A stretch of DNA of 64,000 nucleotides, from the NCBI RefSeq assembly GCF_034344865.1, contig NZ_CP133774.1, positions 1,612,001-1,676,000 on the forward strand, given 5' to 3'. Source of the DNA: Pseudomonas sp. 10S4. GTDB taxonomy: Bacteria > Pseudomonadota > Gammaproteobacteria > Pseudomonadales > Pseudomonadaceae. Shown here piece after piece: positions 9,752 through 58,783 of the stretch; the first letter of the stretch is position 1, and each line of letters starts with the position of its first letter. The notes under the pieces are model-generated. The model was given only the letters and a program-made list of their open reading frames with translations. It made no database searches and was not told the origin of the DNA. The position numbers and the translations under genes are program-made.

Positions 9752-11309
9752 CTATTCGAGTACCACTTCGAGATCGAGGTGGCACAGCCTGCGATAAATC
9801 TCTTCCTTGCGTTCACGCACTGCATGGTTCTGCGGTAACAACTCGCAGCAGCTATGCAGCAAATGCAGCACTTCCAGCGCAAGATCGGGCTCCCAGGCGT
9901 TCAGGCCTGAGTCCTGTAATGTTTGGTCGAGGGTTTCGAGTTGGGTCCTGGCCAGTTCGTACTTCTTGGCCATGAAGCACAGCCGCGCCAGGGCGAACTG
10001 CCAGAAAAATCGCGCCCGCCCGCCTTGGGCGGCTTGCAGGCCCTGCTTGAGGATCTGCACGGCGGCCTTGAGGCCGTCCTTGCGCAAAATCGGCAGGACT
10101 TCTTCCAGGGCCACTTCCCAGGCCGGCTGGTTGTCGGCGACTTCAACCTTGCGCGGCGCACTGGCGCTTTGCAGGTGCGGCATGACGTTGGCGCTGACCC
10201 AGGCGCGGGTGGCCGGGTCGGCAAACGGCGCGCCGTCATGGAAACGCAATTCGATGATGCCAGGCAGGCGCTGAATCAAAAGCGCGAAGTGGATTTCCAC
10301 TTCGCGCATTGCCATCTCGGCATTCAGGCCCTGGAGACATTCCCAGACCATTCGCTGGCCATCGAACCAGAACGGCGCCTTCGCCAGGCTCGCCTCCAGT
10401 TCCACCAGCAAGTCCGCGTACTTGGCCTGGTCGTAACGGTCCTGATAGGCCTTGAGCTTGTCCGCCGGCAACCCGCGTAAAACGGTGATCTGCTCGGCGT
10501 TGCGCTCGGGCACCGCGTCGATGGGCAACCACAGCAGCGTGCGGTTGAGGCGCAGGGCGCGCAGGTCGGTGGCTTTCTGCTTGAGCCACCAGGCGCACAA
10601 CGGGCGGGCACTTTCCTGCTGGGCGCGCAGGGCCTTGTGGGCTTCTTTCTCGTTGTCGATCGGCGCGCCGGGGGTGAACAACTGCGTCGCCGCCTGCTTG
10701 ACCTGGGCGACTGCGGCACCGACCACGCCGGGTTCCGGCTGGTTATCGGCGGCGCGCTGCACCATGTTTTTCAAGCGGCGGGAGATTGGCAGCAGCAACG
10801 GCGCGTCGTCGCCCAGGTGTTCGGTGCAAGCGGCATCGAGACCTTCAAGGTGCTCCACCAACTGCCGGAACAGCGGTAACTGCTCTTTGATCGCGACGTT
10901 TTCGGTCAGCACCTGCTCAAGACGCGGCACCAACCAACTGATGGCAGCGGAGCGGGTGCGAGCCTTGTTCGGGTGAACTTCGGCCCAGTGATTTTCCGAC
11001 AAGTGGTGCAGCAAACCGAGGCCCGCCAGCAGCCCCTGGAAGGACTCGCGCTGGTACAACGCCCATGTCAGCCAGGCGCCAACCCGCAGAATCCTTGGAC
11101 TGGGTACGCAGCAGATTTTCACTGTTTTCACGGATTTTCAGCCAGTCGATCTGACCGGCTTCATGCATCGATTGGGCTTTGGCGAGCTCGCTTTCCAGGG
11201 CCTCATATTCGCTCGAAAAGCGAACATCCTCGCCCGCGAAATTCTCTTTGGAAACAGAGGCTTTTGCGAGTTCAAGGTAATGGGCGGAAAGTTTGCTTGA
11301 GTAGGACAT
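9752..11309 (-). CDS. tssA: T6SS protein TssA, interrupted by one extra base
   Basis: Two overlapping frames give an N-terminal 72-residue part (MSYSSKLSAHYLELAKA...ENSENLLRTQSKD) and a long C-terminal part. Removing one T at about 11095 joins them as TQSKDLRVGAWLTWALYQRE, a standard ImpA_N/TssA motif, giving 518 residues. TssA caps or primes the growing sheath at the baseplate; this variant has a long helical C-terminus (ending HLDLEVVLE). It is the first gene of the tssA-B-C-E run, 32 bp before tssB. The single error in an otherwise intact gene suggests sequencing error rather than inactivation. Confidence 0.88.
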
Positions 11310-16055: not shown

Positions 16056-16744
16056 ATGGTTGGCAGGAGCATTCTGATCGTCGACGACGAAGCGCCCATT
16101 CGCGAAATGATCGCCGTTGCGTTGGAAATGGCCGGCTATGACTGCCTGGAGGCTGAGAACTCCCAACAGGCCCACGCCATCATCGTCGACCGCAAGCCGG
16201 ACCTGATCCTGCTCGACTGGATGCTGCCCGGCACCTCCGGCATCGAGCTGGCCCGACGCCTCAAGCGCGATGAGCTGACCGGGGACATCCCGATCATCAT
16301 GCTCACCGCCAAGGGCGAAGAGGACAACAAGATCCAGGGCCTGGAAGTCGGCGCTGACGACTACATCACCAAACCGTTTTCCCCCGTGAGCTGGTGGCGC
16401 GCCTCAAAGCCGTGCTGCGCCGCGCCGGCCCGACCGATGGCGAAGCGCCAATCGAAGTCGGCGGCCTGCTGCTGGACCCGATCAGCCACCGCGTGACCAT
16501 CGACGGCAAACCCGCCGAGATGGGCCCGACCGAATACCGTTTGCTGCAATTCTTCATGACTCACCAGGAACGCGCCTACACCCGTGGCCAGTTGCTGGAT
16601 CAGGTCTGGGGCGGCAATGTCTATGTTGAAGAGCGCACCGTTGACGTGCACATCCGGCGCCTGCGCAAAGCCCTCGGCGATGCCTACGAAAATCTGGTAC
16701 AAACCGTGCGCGGCACCGGCTACCGGTTTTCCACCAAGGCCTGA
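16056..16744 (+). CDS. phoB: Phosphate response regulator PhoB, single-base frameshift
   Basis: Together two frames encode 229 residues, exactly the usual PhoB length. The receiver domain (residues 1-120) has the acidic pair DDE and phospho-acceptor Asp54 in LLDWMLPG; the C-terminal winged helix has RRLRKAL and VRGTGYRFS. The break is in a run of five C at about 16379-16384; six C restores [13 protein letters not shown]. PhoB activates phosphate-starvation genes when PhoR phosphorylates it; phoR follows after 38 bp. The error is most likely technical. Confidence 0.94.
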
Positions 16745-22822: not shown

Positions 22823-23669
22823 CTAGCCGTAGCGACCGGTGATGTAGTCTTCGGTCTGCTTCTTCGCCGGATTGGTGAACAGGGTGTCGGTGTCGCCAAA
22901 TTCCACCAGTTTGCCCATGTACATGAACGCCGTGTAGTCGGAAACCCGCGCGGCCTGTTGCATGTTGTGGGTCACGATGACGATGGTGAACTTCGATTTC
23001 AGTTCGTAGATCAGCTCTTCGACTTTCAAGGTGGAGATCGGGTCGAGGGCCGAGCACGGTTCGTCCATCAAGAGGATGCGCGGGGTCACCGCGAGCGACC
23101 GCGCGATGCACAGACGCTGCTGCTGCCCTCCGGAGAGTCCGGAACCGGGCGCGCGCAACCGGTCGCGCACCTCCTTCCAGAGCCCGGCCTTGGTCAGGCA
23201 GCTCTCGACGAGGAAGTCTTTCTCATCGTTGGAGGCACGCTTGCCGGTGAGGGTGAGCCCGGCGATGACGTTGTCGTAGATCGACATGGCCGGGAACGGG
23301 TTGGGCTTCTGGAACACCATGCCGATGCGTCTTGACGCGGCGTCGACGACGTCTTGCGTTCGGGGTCGGTAGATGTCCTCACCGTCGAGGAGGACTTCAC
23401 CGGCGAGGCTCGCGGACGGCCACGAGCTCGTGCATCCGGTTCAGGATGCGCAGGAACGTGGACTTGCCGCAGCCGGACGGGCCGATGAAGGCCGTCACAC
23501 GCTGTTTCGGGATGTTCATGCTGACGTCGTACAACGCTTGTTTGTCGCCGTAGAACAGGCTCAGGCCCGGCACTTCGATGGCCACGGTTTCCTGTTCGAG
23601 ACTCAGGCTCTGCTTATCGCGGCCCAGGGCCGACATGTTGATGCCGTGAGTATGTGTTTCGTGCTGCAT
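22823..23669 (-). CDS. pstB: Phosphate ABC transporter ATPase PstB, mosaic gene with one extra base
   Basis: Removing one G/C at about 23419-23421 joins two frames into 281 residues ([13 protein letters not shown]). Walker [10 protein letters not shown], signature LSGGQQQR, Walker B ILLMDEP and switch THNM are all present. The first 85 residues and the last 65 ([14 protein letters not shown]...ITGRYG) match Pseudomonas PstB. The centre, about 23040-23470, does not: [31 protein letters not shown] and [18 protein letters not shown] resemble actinobacterial PstB, and codons turn to CTC, GTC and GAG. Recombination or a chimeric assembly are both possible. It energises PstCA with the neighbouring genes. 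Confidence 0.88.
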
Positions 23670-38319: not shown

Positions 38320-39771
38320 ATGCTCGAAGTCATCAACGACTTCCTCTCAGGGAAAGTACTGATCGTGCTCATTGTCGGGCTCGGTAGCTACTTCACGATC
38401 CGATCGCGTTTCGTACAATTGCGCCACTTCTTCCATATGTTCGCCGTGTTCCGCGATAGCCTCAAAAGCAGCGCCGGTCAACTCAGCTCGTTCCAGGCCC
38501 TGATGCTCAGCCTGGCTGGCCGCGTCGGTGCAGGCAACATCGCCGGTGTCGGCATCGCCGTGACCCTCGGTGGGCCAGGTGCGGTGTTCTGGATGTGGGT
38601 GACCGCGCTGGTCGGCATGTCCAGCAGCTTCTTCGAATGTTCCCTCGGCCAGCTCTACAAACGCTGCGACTCCGACGGCACCTACCGTGGCGGCCCGTCC
38701 TATTACATCCAGCACGGCCTGCAGAAACGCTGGTTGGGGATGATCATGGCGTTCCTGCTGCTGATCACCTTCGGCTTCGCCTTCAACGGCCTGCAATCCC
38801 ATGCCGTGACCCACTCGCTGCAGAACGCATTCCAACTCGACCCGACGTACACCGGGGCGGCGCTGGCAGTGTTGCTGGGCCTGGTGTTCATCGGTGGCAT
38901 CAAGCGGATCGCCAAGGTTGCTGACCTGCTGGTACCGGTGAAAACCCTGGTGTACATCGGCGTGACCATCTACGTGATCGTGCTGCAATTCGACCACGTG
39001 CCGGGCATGCTGATGACCATCGTCAAAAGTGCCTTCGGTCTCGACCAGGCCTTTGGTGGTTTGATCGGCAGCGCCATCGTTATGGGCGTGAAGCGTGGCG
39101 TGTTTGCCAACGAAGCTGGCCTGGGCAGTGCGCCTAACGTGGCAGCCGTCGCGTCGGTCGAGCACCCGGTTGCTCAAGGCGTGGTTCAGGCGTTCAGCGT
39201 GTTCCTCGACACCTTCGTGATCTGCACCTGCACCGCGCTGCTGATCCTGCTGTCGGGCTTCTACACCCCGGGCTTCGAAGGCGACGGCATTGCCCTGACC
39301 CAGAACTCCCTGGCCGCTGTGGTCGGTGACTGGGGCCGCAGTTTCATCTCCATCGCCCTGTCGTTGTTCGTGTTCACCTCGATCCTCTACAACTACTACC
39401 TGGGCGAGAGCAACCTGCGCTTCCTGATCGGTGAAAACCGCGCAGCGCTGATCGGCTACCGCGCACTGGTACTGGTGTTGATCTTCTGGGGTGCCATCGA
39501 GAACCTCGGTACGGTGTTCGCCTTCGCCGACATCACCATGAAGATGCTGGCGTTCGTGAACCTGATCGCGCTGTTCCTGCTGTTCAAGATCGGCATGCGC
39601 ATCCTGCGTGACTACGATGACCAGCGTGCTGCCGGCATCAAGACCCCAGTGTTTGATTCGAGCAAGTTCCCGGATCTGGACCTGGACCTGAAAGCCTGGC
39701 CCGCCAACCCGCCAGCCGCTGCCACCAAGGCCGAAGCTGAGCAGCAAGGCGTGACCGCAGCGCAACGCTGA
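38320..39771 (+). CDS. Amino-acid (alanine/glycine):Na+ symporter, AGCS family
   Basis: 483 residues with about 11 hydrophobic segments. The AGCS signature is seen at residues 58-85 (FQALMLSLAGRVGAGNIAGVG, slightly varied from the usual ALAxRVGxGNI), with GGPGAVFWMWVTALVGMSS following and KRGVFANEAGLGSAPNVAA near residue 255. It imports alanine or glycine with sodium at the inner membrane; exact substrate unknown. It sits between aspartate lyase and asparaginase genes, consistent with amino-acid use. The C-terminal 50 residues are a hydrophilic tail. Confidence 0.9.
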   Translation: MLEVINDFLSGKVLIVLIVGLGSYFTIRSRFVQLRHFFHMFAVFRDSLKSSAGQLSSFQALMLSLAGRVGAGNIAGVGIAVTLGGPGAVFWMWVTALVGMSSSFFECSLGQLYKRCDSDGTYRGGPSYYIQHGLQKRWLGMIMAFLLLITFGFAFNGLQSHAVTHSLQNAFQLDPTYTGAALAVLLGLVFIGGIKRIAKVADLLVPVKTLVYIGVTIYVIVLQFDHVPGMLMTIVKSAFGLDQAFGGLIGSAIVMGVKRGVFANEAGLGSAPNVAAVASVEHPVAQGVVQAFSVFLDTFVICTCTALLILLSGFYTPGFEGDGIALTQNSLAAVVGDWGRSFISIALSLFVFTSILYNYYLGESNLRFLIGENRAALIGYRALVLVLIFWGAIENLGTVFAFADITMKMLAFVNLIALFLLFKIGMRILRDYDDQRAAGIKTPVFDSSKFPDLDLDLKAWPANPPAAATKAEAEQQGVTAAQR

Positions 39772-39880
39772 TCGGTAAAAACCGGGCGCATCCCCTGCGC
39801 CCGGCGTGACACAACGTGCGGCCGGCGTCATGCTCGGTCGCAGGTTGTTTTGGTGTGAAGCTGTAAGACCGCATCGCGGC

Positions 39881-39920
39881 CGTCGCGAGCAAGCTCGCTC
39901 CCACACAGGCTCGCTCCCAC
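39881..39920. repeat. Single REP unit
   Basis: GTCGCGAGCAAGCTCGCTCCCACA followed by a partial second copy of the right half, immediately upstream of the asparaginase gene. Confidence 0.6.
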
Positions 39921-39938
39921 CGTTCTCGGAGAACCCCC

Positions 39939-42344: not shown

Positions 42345-43376
<1,032 letters not shown>

Positions 43377-49220: not shown

Positions 49221-50780
49221 CTAGCGGCACCAGGCGCTACGCAACCGAATCAGCGCCGACTCGATCGCCGCCTCCGGCACGGCGGCGAACCCCAGTACCA
49301 GCCCGGCACGCTGATCCGCTGGCCGGGTCGAGTCGGGCAGCCAATAGCTGCTCAGCGCGTTGATCTCGACGCCCACCGCCTCGGCTTGCGCCACCAGTTC
49401 CCGCTCGCGGGCCAAGCTCTCGACCGAAACCGTCAAATGCAGCCCTGCCGCCACGCTGGGCAGGCTGCCCACACCGGGGATGTCTTTTGGCCAACCAGCC
49501 AGCAGTGTATTGCGCCGACTTAGAGCGGCTCGGCGCATACGGCGAATGTGCCGCTGGAAATGCCCGGCGGCGATGAACTCGGCCATCACAGCCTGGGTGC
49601 TGACTTCCGAATGACGCACATCCACCGCACGCCGACGGGAAAACGCATCCACCAGGCCCGGCGGTAATACCAGGTAACCCAATCGCAATGCCGGGAACGC
49701 CACTTTACCGAACGTCCCGACGTACAACACCCGCCCCTGCCGATCCAGTGCTGCCAATGGGGCCAAAGGTGCGCCGCTGTAGCGGTACTCGCCGTCGTAA
49801 TCGTCTTCGACGATCCAGCCTTGGGTGCGCTCGGCCCACGCCAACAACTCGAGCCGCCGCGCCAGGCTCATGATCACACCGGTCGGGTACTGATGAGACG
49901 GGGTGACATAAGCCAGTCGGCAATCGGTCAACCCGTCCAGCTCGGCGCAATTGATTCCCTCGCTGTCCACCGATACACCGTGCAGTCGGCCACCCGCCAC
50001 AGCAAAGGCATGACCGGCTGCCCGGTACCCCGGATTCTCGATTGCGACCCCGTCGCCCGGCTCCACGAGCAGCTGTGCACAAAGGCTAATTCCTTGCTGT
50101 GCGCCACTGGTGATCACAATTTGCTCAGCCGAGCACTGCATGCCCCGCGAACTGCGCAAATACGCGGCAATCATCCCGCGCAATCGCGCATCACCGGCCG
50201 GATCGCCATAACACAGCTGCTGTAAATCCGGTTTTCGCCAGAAAGCCGCGTTCAGCTTGGCCCATACCTCGAACGGAAACAGATCGAACGCCGGCACTCC
50301 CACCCGAAAAGCCTTCGGCGGACCGCTCGGCGGCTTGGCCAAATGGTTCTTTTCAACGCGCTCCAGCGCACCGCTGTGGATAACTTTACTGGATGGAATC
50401 ACAGGTAAATCCAGCCAATTTGTGGATAAGGCTGTGGATAACCCTGTTGAAAACCCTGTGGATACTTTTGTGGATAGTTTTTTTGCCGGCAACGCGGCTT
50501 GAGGCAATTGCGCGACATAAGTCCCATCGCCCACCCGTCCTTCGATAAAGCCTTCGGCATAGAGCTGATCGTAGGCGCGGACCACGCTGTTACGGGAAAT
50601 CGATAACGCCGCCGCCAAGTCACGACTGGCCGGCAATCGCGTGCCACTGGCCAGTCGCCCGTCGAGCACCCGCACCCGCAACGCCTGATAGAGCTGACGA
50701 CTCAAGCCCTGGCGGCGATCGAGTTCGATGCCGGCCGGGTTGAAGGACAGGGACAGTGGTTCGCTGGTCATTGCCTGCAC
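49221..50780 (-). CDS. MocR-type regulator (GntR HTH fused to aminotransferase domain)
   Basis: 519 residues. The GntR winged helix spans about 20-90 (RQLYQALRVRVLDGRLASGTRLP, ALSISRNSVVRAYDQLYAEGF); the fold-type-I aminotransferase domain spans about 170-510, with the PLP-lysine region YVGTFGKVAFPALRLGYLV near residue 365. Between them, about residues 100-130, is an unusual STKV/STGF/STGL/STAL/STNW repeat encoded by a DnaA-box-like array. It resembles PdxR/GabR regulators that sense vitamin B6 or amino acids. It is divergent from the paiB-like gene, its probable target. Confidence 0.9.
   Translation of the reverse strand: MQAMTSEPLSLSFNPAGIELDRRQGLSRQLYQALRVRVLDGRLASGTRLPASRDLAAALSISRNSVVRAYDQLYAEGFIEGRVGDGTYVAQLPQAALPAKKLSTKVSTGFSTGLSTALSTNWLDLPVIPSSKVIHSGALERVEKNHLAKPPSGPPKAFRVGVPAFDLFPFEVWAKLNAAFWRKPDLQQLCYGDPAGDARLRGMIAAYLRSSRGMQCSAEQIVITSGAQQGISLCAQLLVEPGDGVAIENPGYRAAGHAFAVAGGRLHGVSVDSEGINCAELDGLTDCRLAYVTPSHQYPTGVIMSLARRLELLAWAERTQGWIVEDDYDGEYRYSGAPLAPLAALDRQGRVLYVGTFGKVAFPALRLGYLVLPPGLVDAFSRRRAVDVRHSEVSTQAVMAEFIAAGHFQRHIRRMRRAALSRRNTLLAGWPKDIPGVGSLPSVAAGLHLTVSVESLARERELVAQAEAVGVEINALSSYWLPDSTRPADQRAGLVLGFAAVPEAAIESALIRLRSAWCR
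50375..50477. repeat. Cluster of DnaA-box-like nonamers with 12-bp periodicity
   Basis: TGTGGATAA (complement TTATCCACA, the perfect DnaA box) occurs at 50375, 50421 and 50433; TGTGGATAC at 50457 and TGTGGATAG at 50469 differ in one base, and TGTTGAAAA at 50445 keeps the register. The units at 50421-50477 repeat every 12 bp. They encode the Ser-Thr repeat of the MocR linker on the minus strand. Confidence 0.85.
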
Positions 50781-53780: not shown

Positions 53781-54602
53781 ATGAAAATCCAACCGCTACT
53801 GGCCTTGGGCCTGACGATTCTGGCTGCCTCTACCCAAGCCTTTGGCGGCGCCACGCTGGATCGCGTCGAGCAAAAGAAAGAACTGGTGGGCGTGCTGATG
53901 GAGAGTTATCCACCGTTCTCGTTCCTCAATGACCAGAACCAGCTCGACGGTTTCGACGTCGATGTGGCGAAAGCCGTGGCCGAGAAACTCGGGGTGAAAC
54001 TGCGCCTCGAAACGCCGTCCTGGGACGTGATTGCCGCCGGCCGCTGGAGCGGTCGCTACGACATTTGCATCTGCTCCATGACCCCGAGCAAGGCCCGCGC
54101 CGAAGTCTTCGACTTCCCGGTGGAGTATTACGCCTCGCCGGCGGTGATCGTGGTCAACGCCAAGGATGACCGCATTCACAACGCCAAGGACCTGAGCGGC
54201 AAGAAAGTCGGCCTCACCAGCGCCTCCAGCTACGAAATCTACCTGAACAAAAACCTGGTGATCGAAGGCGCCGAGGACACGAAATTGCAGTACCCGTTCG
54301 AGGACGTGCAGATCGCCCCGTATGACACCGACAACGTGGCATTCCAGGATTTGGGCCTGGGCGCTGGCGTGCGACTGGACGCGATCCTCACCAACCTGGT
54401 GACCGCACAACCGCGCCTGAACGAAGACAAACGCTTCAAGCTGGCCGGCGACCCGCTGTACTCGGAGCCGAACTCGGTGGCCATCGAAAAAGGCGACGCC
54501 CAGTGGGACGGCAAGGTGCGTGAAGTCTTTGCCCAACTGAAACAGGACGGCACGCTGAGCAAGCTCTCGCAAAAATGGATCGGCGCCGATATCAGCAAAT
54601 GA
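53781..54602 (+). CDS. Periplasmic amino-acid-binding protein of an ABC transporter
   Basis: 273 residues with a signal peptide (MKIQPLLALGLTILAASTQAFGG). SBP family 3: LVGVLMESYPPFSFLNDQNQLDGFDVDVAKAVAEKLG near the N-terminus, then DICICSMTPSKARAEVFDFPVEYY, where the arginine of RAEVFDF normally binds the amino-acid carboxylate. It delivers an amino acid or analogue to the permease encoded next (ATGA overlap). No ATPase gene follows. The gene start is ATG 53781, after GGGA. Confidence 0.92.
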   Translation: MKIQPLLALGLTILAASTQAFGGATLDRVEQKKELVGVLMESYPPFSFLNDQNQLDGFDVDVAKAVAEKLGVKLRLETPSWDVIAAGRWSGRYDICICSMTPSKARAEVFDFPVEYYASPAVIVVNAKDDRIHNAKDLSGKKVGLTSASSYEIYLNKNLVIEGAEDTKLQYPFEDVQIAPYDTDNVAFQDLGLGAGVRLDAILTNLVTAQPRLNEDKRFKLAGDPLYSEPNSVAIEKGDAQWDGKVREVFAQLKQDGTLSKLSQKWIGADISK

Positions 54603-55435
54603 CTTCTTTCCCAAAACCTCCCCAGCCACCGCAACCGGTAGCTGAGTCGCGGCTGCAACGGATCTTCGGTTTCCGCACGCGGCTGTACCTGACCTGGGCG
54701 GCGATGCTCGGCTTGTTCGCCAGTTTTTTCCTGAGCTTCGACCTGAAGTTCTCGATCATCCTCGACAAACTGCCCAACCTCGTCGGCCTGCACCTGGCGC
54801 CCAATGGCTTCTTGCAAGGGGCGGCGCTGACGTTGTTTCTGTGCCTGTGCTCGATCGTCGCCTCGTCGCTGCTGGGTTTCATCACCGCACTGGCACGGTT
54901 ATCGAAGAGCGCCGTGGCGTTCGGGATTGCGAGTTTCTACGCGTCGTTCTTTCGCGGCACGCCGCTGCTGATCCAAATCCTGCTGATCTACCTCGGCCTG
55001 CCGCAACTGGGCATCGTGCCGGGCGCCGTTGCCGCCGGGATCATCGCCCTGTCGCTGAACTACGGCGCTTACCTGAGCGAAATCTTCCGCGCCGGCATCC
55101 TCGGCGTCCCCCATGGCCAACGCGAGGCGTCCCTGGCCCTGGGCATGCGCGAAACCGTAATCTTCTGGCGCGTCACCCTGCCCCAAGCCATGCGCACCAT
55201 CATCCCGCCGACCACCAACCAATTCATCTCCATGCTCAAGGACTCGTCGCTGATCTCGGTGATGGGGGTTTGGGAGGTTATGTTTTTGGCGCAGTCGTAT
55301 GGGCGCTCGAGCTATCGGTATATCGAGATGCTGACCACAGCGGCGGTGATTTATTGGGTGATGTCGATTGGGCTGGAGCTGATTCAGGCGAGGATGGAGC
55401 GGCATTATGGGAAGGCGTATTTGAGCCGTTCATAG
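54599..55435 (+). CDS. Amino-acid ABC transporter permease
   Basis: 278 residues of the HisM/GlnP permease family with five or six hydrophobic segments. The ATPase-coupling loop reads ILGVPHGQREASLALGMRETVIFWRVTLPQAMRTIIPP near residues 170-205, and SFFRGTPLLIQILLIYLGLPQ near residue 120 is typical. The ATG at 54599 overlaps the upstream stop (ATGA). A 60-residue N-terminal extension precedes the first core helix. With only one permease and no ATPase gene, it must form a homodimer and borrow an ATPase, or the ATPase lies elsewhere. Confidence 0.92.
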   Translation: MTSFPKPPQPPQPVAESRLQRIFGFRTRLYLTWAAMLGLFASFFLSFDLKFSIILDKLPNLVGLHLAPNGFLQGAALTLFLCLCSIVASSLLGFITALARLSKSAVAFGIASFYASFFRGTPLLIQILLIYLGLPQLGIVPGAVAAGIIALSLNYGAYLSEIFRAGILGVPHGQREASLALGMRETVIFWRVTLPQAMRTIIPPTTNQFISMLKDSSLISVMGVWEVMFLAQSYGRSSYRYIEMLTTAAVIYWVMSIGLELIQARMERHYGKAYLSRS

Positions 55436-55512
55436 GAGCCGAGCTTGCTACGGACGACGATCCGGCGATGACAGTCTCACGAACGCCATCGCCGGCAAGC
55501 CGCGCTCCCACG
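55432..55512. repeat. Degenerate REPIN
   Basis: Divergent inverted pair TAGGAGCCGAGCTTGC / CGCCGGCAAGCCGCGCTCCCAC overlapping the permease stop. The next 110 bp up to 55625 hold the autotransporter promoter region and no gene. Confidence 0.6.
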
Positions 55513-55625: not shown

Positions 55626-58583
55626 ATGCCCTTCTCGCCCCAACGCCTGGCGCTCTCTATCGCCCTGCTGATCAGCGCCAGCGCCGTCCATGCCAAAACC
55701 GTGCAGATCGACACCGCCACCACGACCGCGCAAACCCTCGGCGGTAGCGACACCCTGATGATCTCCGCCCCCGGCAGCATCACCAACAGTGGCAAGGCCG
55801 TGAGCCTGAAGGACAGCACCAGCGGCGCAGGTGTGGTGGTCGATAACTCGGGCAAGATCGTGTCCACCGGTGGTCGGGCGATCGACAGCAGTGGCGACTT
55901 GACCCAGGCGCGCAACTACAGCATTTACAACCGCAGTGGCGGGCAGATCCTTGGTTTCAACGATGCACTGCGTATCGACAGCAACTTCGCCAGCGGCAGT
56001 CTGTTGATCGATAACAGCGGCACCATCCGCTCCACCACTGGCCAAGGCCTGGACCTGGATGCCCTGCGCAGCGCCAGCGTGAAAACCACCATCATCAACC
56101 GCGCGGGCGGGCTGATTCGGGGGACGCCAGCGACGGCATGAAGACCGGCGCCAACGCGACGATTACCAACTATGGCGAGATCTCCACCGGCGACTCGCAT
56201 AACGCCAACGAGAAGTTCGACGGCATCGACATTGATACAGCGACCGGCGTGACGGTGACCAACTACGGCACCATTTCCGGCGGACGCCACGGCATCACCA
56301 CCGACCTTGGCGCCACACTGGTCAACTACGGCCAGATCACTGGGCGCAACGGTTCGGGTTTCGGTTCCGATGGCGACGGCACGGTGATCAACCACGGCAC
56401 GATTACCGGCGCCTATTCGGGGCTGCAACCCAACGGTGACGGCGATGGTGTGGACATCGACAACATCGCCCACATTGAAAACTACGGCACCATTCAAGGC
56501 GTCGGCGCGGGTGGTGTGGACAAGGGTGGTTTCGCCAACGGCAGTGAAGGCATCGCGCTGGGTGGCGGCTATATTTTGAACGCCAAAGGTGCGCTGATCA
56601 GCGGCGCGAACAGCGCGATCCTGGTGGACGACGGCAGCGGTGGTTCAGGTGTGGCAGCGACCACCCTGGAAAACTACGGCACGATTCAGGGCCTCGACGG
56701 TTTCGGTGTGAAATTCGTCGGCGAGTTTGCCGACAACGTGATCAACGGCGGCACCATCAGCAGCAGCAACGGCCTGGCGCTGGACCTGGGCGGTGGCAAC
56801 GACAGCCTCACCTTACGCAACGGCAGCCGCTTTGTCGGCATGGTTGATGGCGGCACCGGTTATGACCGCGTGGTGATGGATGACGTGGCAGGCGGTAGTT
56901 TCGGCGCCAGTCACAATTTCGAATGGCTGGAGGTCAAGCAAGGCGTCTGGACGCTGACCGGCAGCGGTGATTTCAGTCGACGGCGGCGCGGTGCGCAATG
57001 GCGCGACGCTGATCAACCAGGGCGGCATCGCCGGCAGCCTGACGGTGGACGCGGGCGGTGTGTATGCCGGCGGCGGTTCGGTGGGTAATCTGCTGGTCAA
57101 CGGTACGTTGCAGACCAATACGCAACTCGGCACCGCGACCGTCGTTCACGATTTGACCTTCGGCAGCGGCGGCATCCTGGCTTACGGCGTGAATGCAGAT
57201 GGCAGCAGCGCCCCGGTGGTGGTCGGCGGCACCGCCAATCTGAATGGCGCGACCCTGGCGGTGAACCCCGGCAGCGGCACCTATCCATGGCAAAGCAATT
57301 ACACCGTACTGCAAGCCGCGAGCATCAACGGCACGTTCGGCAAGGTTACCAGCGACTACGCGTTCCTAACGCCGACTCTCGCTTACACCCCGACTCAGGT
57401 CGATCTGACCTACACCCGCAATGACATCGCCTTCAACCAGTTCGCCGCCACCGGCAACGGCAGCAACGCTGCCAACAGCCTGGCCTCGATGGGCAGAAAC
57501 AGCGCGCTCTACAACGCATTGCTCAACACCACCAACACCACGGCGGGCGCGGCCATCGAGCAACTGGCCGGCGCCAGCAACGCCAACCTGACCAGCGCGA
57601 CTCTCAGCGCCAGCAGCCAGATCGGCGGCAGCATGCTCTCGGCGATGCGGCAAATGGGCGGTGGCGCAGGCTTGCTGATGGGTCTTGATCAACGGGATAC
57701 GCCCGTTCTCGCTTCCACCGGAGTTCCGTCTGAAGCGCGCAACCTGAATGACCCGAACGCCCAAGGTCGTGTGTGGCTGCAAGCCATCGGCGGCTACGGC
57801 AAAATCGACGGCGAACATGGCAACAGCGGATTGGAACAACGCTCGAAAGGCAGCGTGCTCGGCGCTGACTGGGCATTCAACCCGCAATGGCGACTGGGCG
57901 TGCTCGGTGGTTATTCGAGAACCGATCTGGATGCCACCGGCGTCGACGGCAATCTCGAGAGCTGGCATGCCGGCGTCTACGCGCTACGCCAAAGTGGCCC
58001 GTTCGCGCTGCGCCTCGGTGCGGCCTACAGCGGCCATCAAGGCGAAAGCAAACGCACCGTCGCGTTCAACGGTTTCAATGATCGACCAAAAGGCGATTAC
58101 GACGCCAACAGCCAACAAGCCTTCGCCGAATTGGGTTACGCGCTGGGCAGCGGTCGACTCAGCGCCGAACCCTTCGCCAACCTCGGCTACCAGCGCTATC
58201 ACCGCGACAGCTACCAGGAAAAAGGCGGCGTCGCCGCGTTGCAGGTTGACGCGCAAACCCAGGACAACTTCAGCAGCACCTTCGGCGTACGCCTGGCGCA
58301 CCTGAGCACGCTGGAAAACGGTATGAGCCTGACCCCACGCTTGAGCACTGGCTGGAAGCATACGTATGGCGATGTCAGCAGCTCGACGCGCCAGGCGTTT
58401 GTGGTGGGTGGCACGGCGTTCAGTGTCGATGGCAGTTCACTGGATAGGGACAGCCTGGTGCTGGAGGCCGGGTTGGATCTGGGGATTTCTGCGCGTCATA
58501 GCGTGGGGATTGCCTACAGCGGCGAGATCGGCAGTAACAGCCGCAATCATGGGTTGATTGGGCAGTGGCAGATGAGATTCTGA
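55626..58583 (+). CDS. Autotransporter (type Va), two single-base frameshifts
   Basis: Three overlapping frames join into 985 residues if one G is added to the five at 56117-56121 (GLIRGDASDGMKTG) and one T removed at about 56971 (GDSVDGGAV); the two cancel in length. Signal peptide to about residue 23 (SAVHA-KT). The passenger (25-560) is a beta-helix of Gly/Asn-rich repeats (ITNYGEIS, VTNYGTIS, LVNYGQIT, VINHGTIT, ENYGTIQG). The C-terminal 12-strand barrel (about 700-985) ends IGQWQMRF with the terminal Phe. The passenger should be exported to the cell surface; no catalytic triad was seen, so adhesion is the likely role. Confidence 0.87.
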
Positions 58584-58783
58584 GTTTTCGCCAACGGAAG
58601 CGTCTGGGATTGCTGTAGGGAAAAACGTCTGATGGCCGGGTGAAACGGAGGGTGGTCGAAGCCCACCGTTGATTCGGCTACAAGCGGTGTTTCTACGCCC
58701 TTCGAAACGCCCGGAAATGCCCGGCATCCCGAAACTGGATCGACTTTTACAGTTTGGCCTCACCCCAAAAGAGGCTGAACCCT

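Follow-up and report, generated by a model that had tools for sequence, protein, structure and literature searches.

The pstB gene of Pseudomonas sp. 10S4 appears in its genome record with ends typical of Pseudomonas and a centre resembling PstB of actinobacteria, which raises the question whether DNA was exchanged between two phyla or whether the sequences of two organisms were mixed on the way to the assembly. The gene lies in a stretch of 64,000 nucleotides, called the window here, to which all coordinates refer unless the contig is named. As set out below, the mosaic is real in the sequence but almost certainly not in the organism.

Ends and centre of pstB

The 10S4 genome consists of a single contig of 7.27 Mb that is 99.55% complete and 1.23% contaminated according to marker genes. 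Its pstB occupies 847 bases on the minus strand (22823-23669), compared with 834 bases in G679, a genome of the same species in which the gene is intact with 277 codons. Because its frame breaks in between, the 10S4 gene was listed as one open frame at 23397-23669 and another at 22823-23320. In a profile search, the PstB family TIGR00972 was the top family for both pieces (253.6 and 69.5 bits). In a search of the whole genome the two pieces scored 275.4 and 66.9 bits, and no intact protein, neither these pieces nor any other, reached the curated cut-off of 343.2 bits. A second intact pstB was sought in the genome and none was found, the next ABC ATPases scoring at most 235.1 bits; a genome search for a second copy of the foreign stretch returned short ABC-ATPase matches only. 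To our knowledge, pst genes are not generally essential.

The outer parts of the gene are those of the species. The 5' part (23487-23669, minus strand) equals G679 pstB at 183 of 183 bases and the 3' part (22823-23037, minus strand) at 215 of 215, thus 398 of 398 in all. In windows of 60 bp, the ends had a mean identity of 0.88-0.95 to ten close Pseudomonas genes, namely those aligned out of 24 pstB genes of the same genus, while between 23040 and 23459 the mean identity to these ten fell to 0.42-0.78 in all 13 windows. The ten genes share 0.87-0.96 identity among themselves over that stretch. Of 927 bins in which the window was set against two relatives, the three that were most specific to 10S4 lie in the pstB centre. 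At an E value of 1e-25 or better, the central stretch was present in one of 398 Pseudomonas genomes searched, which was 10S4 itself; it was not found in the other 397, and the same-species genome G679 lacks it.

Outside clusters of at least eight events, 10S4 and G679 differ at 2.43 sites per kb over 51.8 kb aligned. Two of the 13 difference clusters listed make up the pstB centre (23066-23303 and 23326-23456). Other clusters in the window were seen at 10706-10787, 39410-39925, 43046-43319, 49259-49419, 54479-54587, 55432-55478 and 58424-58624, and these may reflect variation between strains or the ends of alignments.

The original prediction of a mosaic with Pseudomonas ends and an actinobacterium-like centre is therefore borne out by the ends identical to G679 and by the match of the centre to Cryobacterium described below. 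Its account of the boundaries needs revision. Ends of 85 and 65 residues had been proposed; the clean ends comprise about 61-71 and 71-80 codons, ranges that vary with the position of the switch inside the shared stretches. The centre, placed at about 23040-23470, diverges over 23066-23456 (minus strand), with the frame broken inside it. The switches fall within two stretches common to donor and Pseudomonas genes, as had been foreseen for conserved parts of the gene. The first switch point lies in 30 bp (23457-23486, minus strand) in which every base is found both in the donor and in one or more of six Pseudomonas genes, and which we take to be the Walker A region; the second lies in 28 bp (23038-23065, minus strand) delimited by base-by-base alignment, presumably the region from Walker B to the D-loop.

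Donor of the centre and blended bases

A protein search, in which scores were computed for the 8000 candidates with most words in common and the best 120 were listed, pointed to a specific actinobacterial source. Residues 1-88 of the downstream frame matched a Cryobacterium PstB best, at 95% identity. The best matches of the protein encoded by the centre were actinobacterial, and the four named organisms among the best eight were all Cryobacterium (91-95% identity), a genus of the Microbacteriaceae within the Actinomycetota. Among the 120 best matches listed, one named organism outside this phylum was noticed, a Chloroflexi MAG at 60% identity. The original prediction would have failed had Pseudomonas pstB genes been the best matches of the central segment, and this was not the outcome. 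PstB centres that are 79%, 70% and 66% like the query occur in three public records bearing the title Bifidobacterium breve MAG; they differ so much from one another that these titles may be wrong.

At the DNA level, the best match to the centre was 86% among 398 genomes from the family of an Agromyces genome, and in 57 genomes of the genus to which this match belongs, G451 reached 98% identity over 436 bp. We assign this genus to Cryobacterium because of the organism names of the best PstB protein matches. The stretch 23039-23486 holds all 441 G451 pstB bases in order, with no substitution, no base lost and seven extra bases. As G451 differs from three relatives of its own genus at 18, 19 and 24 of these 441 sites, the donor must be the species of G451 or one very near to it.

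The seven extra bases also correct another part of the original prediction, which had assumed a single-base error beside the centre; the frame break lies inside the foreign part, and the peptides quoted for the centre are therefore not all in one frame. In a three-way alignment of 449 centre bases, 287 were shared, 145 matched the donor only, nine Pseudomonas only and eight neither, the last two counts varying with gap placement. Six of the seven extra bases fall in a patch at 23326-23372 (minus strand), whose limits were set after the alignment had been viewed and which scored 13.58 against 24 Pseudomonas genes, compared with 6.21 for the donor alone. None of 2000 random sets of six insertions reached this score (mean 5.94, maximum 12.17), and by longest common subsequence one of 2000 attained the observed value. 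The patch thus reads as complete donor sequence plus six extra Pseudomonas-like bases resembling leftovers of the host, as a consensus of two read populations could leave them. Gene conversion between phyla would be expected to leave a clean donor tract, whereas this one carries seven extra bases, six of them recipient-like as a group.

Similar patches and frame breaks in the assembly

The first other protein gene family checked for foreign patches was EF-Tu. In alignment columns 120-990, the second tuf copy, 0.59 Mb from pstB, is 0.87-1.00 like the copy of one relative, and in columns 990-1080 it is identical to the donor. At contig positions 1044774-1045068, it holds 281 of 281 donor bases within 295 bases, with no mismatch and 14 extra bases. 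These shift the sequence towards the gene of the relative (63 for 10S4 and 36 for the donor), and none of 1000 random controls did so to this extent (maximum 42).

The groEL gene, 1.3 Mb from pstB, is split between residues 273 and 283, inside a stretch of 106 bp (contig approximately 333951-334056) that is 96% identical to the donor groEL, with two gaps (two extra bases) and two mismatches. At this place the groEL of a relative matches the donor over only 56 bp, at 95%. As judged from its sequence, the groEL patch is shorter and less clean than those of pstB and tuf. The rpoC and rpoB genes also contain difference clusters relative to the same species (contig 1051544-1051612 and 1054697-1054905), and parts of these genes resemble the donor more in 10S4 than in the same-species genome (91% vs 81% for rpoC, 84% vs 76% for rpoB), exact identity being absent from both. 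A further 62 bp (contig 1041105-1041166) are identical to the donor, which may be ordinary conservation because a relative has 93.5% identity there.

Comparison of the first tuf copy and of atpD showed no foreign patch, and a 20-kb donor stretch around pstB gave no other near-identical match in the 10S4 stretches compared; the artefact argued for below is patchy for these reasons. In the tuf region, four of seven difference clusters were without a match in the donor stretches compared, which may lack the right gene. Six 16S copies spanned the full model, scoring 1499.5-1520.4 bits. Thirty DNA dips were recorded over the 264 kb surrounding the window, where pstB was one of the 14 largest local drops listed relative to G005 (130 genes measured); of the others, seven start within the first 20 alignment columns, two lie in split genes and four remain.

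The assembly is also rich in frame breaks. Of the window genes, 40 are intact in both G005 and G679, and 10S4 splits seven of them, with 26 intact, three partial and four not found, compared with no split in G679 among the 31 genes intact in G005 and 10S4, and none in G005 among the 39 intact in G679 and 10S4, six of which have an internal stop in G005. With G005 and G016 as references, split genes numbered 7/38 in 10S4, 0/40 in G005 and 2/40 in G016. Over 264 kb, 15 of 136 G005 genes were split in 10S4, and three of 137 in the reverse test. Net indels were present at all 18 break points examined, with a run of at least three equal bases involved at five. An error-rich consensus, as from a low-depth long-read assembly, would be the natural reading. 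Frame changes also split six window genes other than pstB, all of them intact in both G005 and G016, at approximately 11090, 14843, 16383, 18387, 28825 and 37243, probably as a result of sequencing errors; the gene at 16383 is presumably that of the phosphate regulator PhoB, considering its position and size. A gene that has 987 codons in G005 is represented in 10S4 by three frame pieces at approximately 55626-58580.

Origin of the mosaic

Given the like patches in other conserved genes of this genome, we interpret the pstB centre as a data error and not as a gene swap between phyla. The sequences make it highly probable that Cryobacterium reads overwrote, or were merged into, the consensus sequence of conserved Pseudomonas genes. 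The findings are those expected of a chimeric consensus: a second organism at species-level identity (441/441), blending of host bases in pstB and tuf, recurrence in tuf copy 2 and, in a less clean form, in groEL, and a centre confined to one of 398 genomes. The contig itself never passes over into a second genome: a conserved stretch was overwritten, and the sequence flanking it is Pseudomonas at either end. Counted against this interpretation are the marker-gene contamination of only 1.23%, the patchiness noted above, the eight of 449 centre bases that match neither parent, and the two mismatches and two extra bases in the groEL patch.

The course of events may have been as follows. Cryobacterium would have been present alongside Pseudomonas in the sample or the read set, and its reads would align to the Pseudomonas draft wherever stretches are conserved enough. 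A consensus or polishing step would then rewrite the Pseudomonas sequence to that of Cryobacterium at these stretches, and Pseudomonas bases that had no counterpart among the Cryobacterium reads would stay, leaving a complete donor stretch with strays and a broken frame. Rewriting would stop where both genes have about 30 identical bases in common. The consensus or polishing step would thus be at fault, the foreign reads would come from the same sample or run, and the true pstB of the strain is presumably ordinary.

The same mixed reads might instead have led the assembler itself to cross over in the assembly graph at shared stretches. The position of both switch points in shared stretches of 30 and 28 bp agrees with such an event, which we nevertheless consider unlikely, as a clean switch in the graph would not leave extra Pseudomonas-like bases in the donor stretch of pstB and tuf.

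Much less probable still is a true conversion across phyla, in which DNA of a co-resident Cryobacterium recombined at the two shared stretches and the frame was lost afterwards. An exact foreign sequence between two shared stretches would suit it, and recombination for which homology at one end serves as the anchor has been described (PMC3240628). It does not account for recipient-like bases scattered through an otherwise unchanged donor stretch, nor for like scars in tuf and groEL, where breaking an EF-Tu copy and GroEL would come at a cost; the frameshift-rich assembly and the absence of the pstB patch from the same-species genome also argue against it. The likeness to homology-facilitated illegitimate recombination (PMC3240628) lies in foreign DNA joined at stretches of identity, whereas such recombination would not be expected to blend single bases of host and donor or to scar a number of unlinked conserved genes alike. 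A literature search found nothing under short-patch double illegitimate recombination, and nothing joining Cryobacterium with Pseudomonas, PacBio and co-culture. That the centres of pstB, tuf and groEL were really and very recently replaced from Cryobacterium, joined at about 30 identical bases, has only a very slight chance of being true. The least probable origin is a chimeric molecule of library preparation that entered the assembly, for although template switching is expected to place switch points in shared stretches, single molecules are outvoted at normal depth, and the extra bases and the recurrence would stay unexplained.

An artefact of mixed reads had been favoured over gene conversion from the outset, and the exact but blended donor sequence, the same-species flanks, the absence of the centre from the 397 other Pseudomonas genomes searched and the tuf and groEL scars uphold this preference. 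No biological mechanism needs to be proposed. Errors of related kinds are known. Long-read assemblies suffer from indels that fragment genes (PMC12007338, PMC8011154), and 10S4 resembles them in that small indels split many genes of a genome that is otherwise contiguous; errors of this kind would not introduce foreign sequence, unlike what is seen in 10S4. Contamination and chimerism, as addressed by GUNC (PMC8201837) and FCS-GX (PMC10898089), likewise put sequence of another lineage into one genome record. According to their descriptions, the tools assess genes or stretches by lineage, whereas the foreign pieces of 10S4 measure about 100-450 bp, lie within single genes and are blended with the host.

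An apparent example of recombination between phyla, striking but false, is thus removed. The contamination of 10S4 lies within single conserved genes, as patches of roughly 100-450 bp, and would mislead phylogenies or scans for horizontal transfer that include its pstB, tuf or groEL. Screening for the signature, a complete donor stretch with stray bases like those of the host, is simple.
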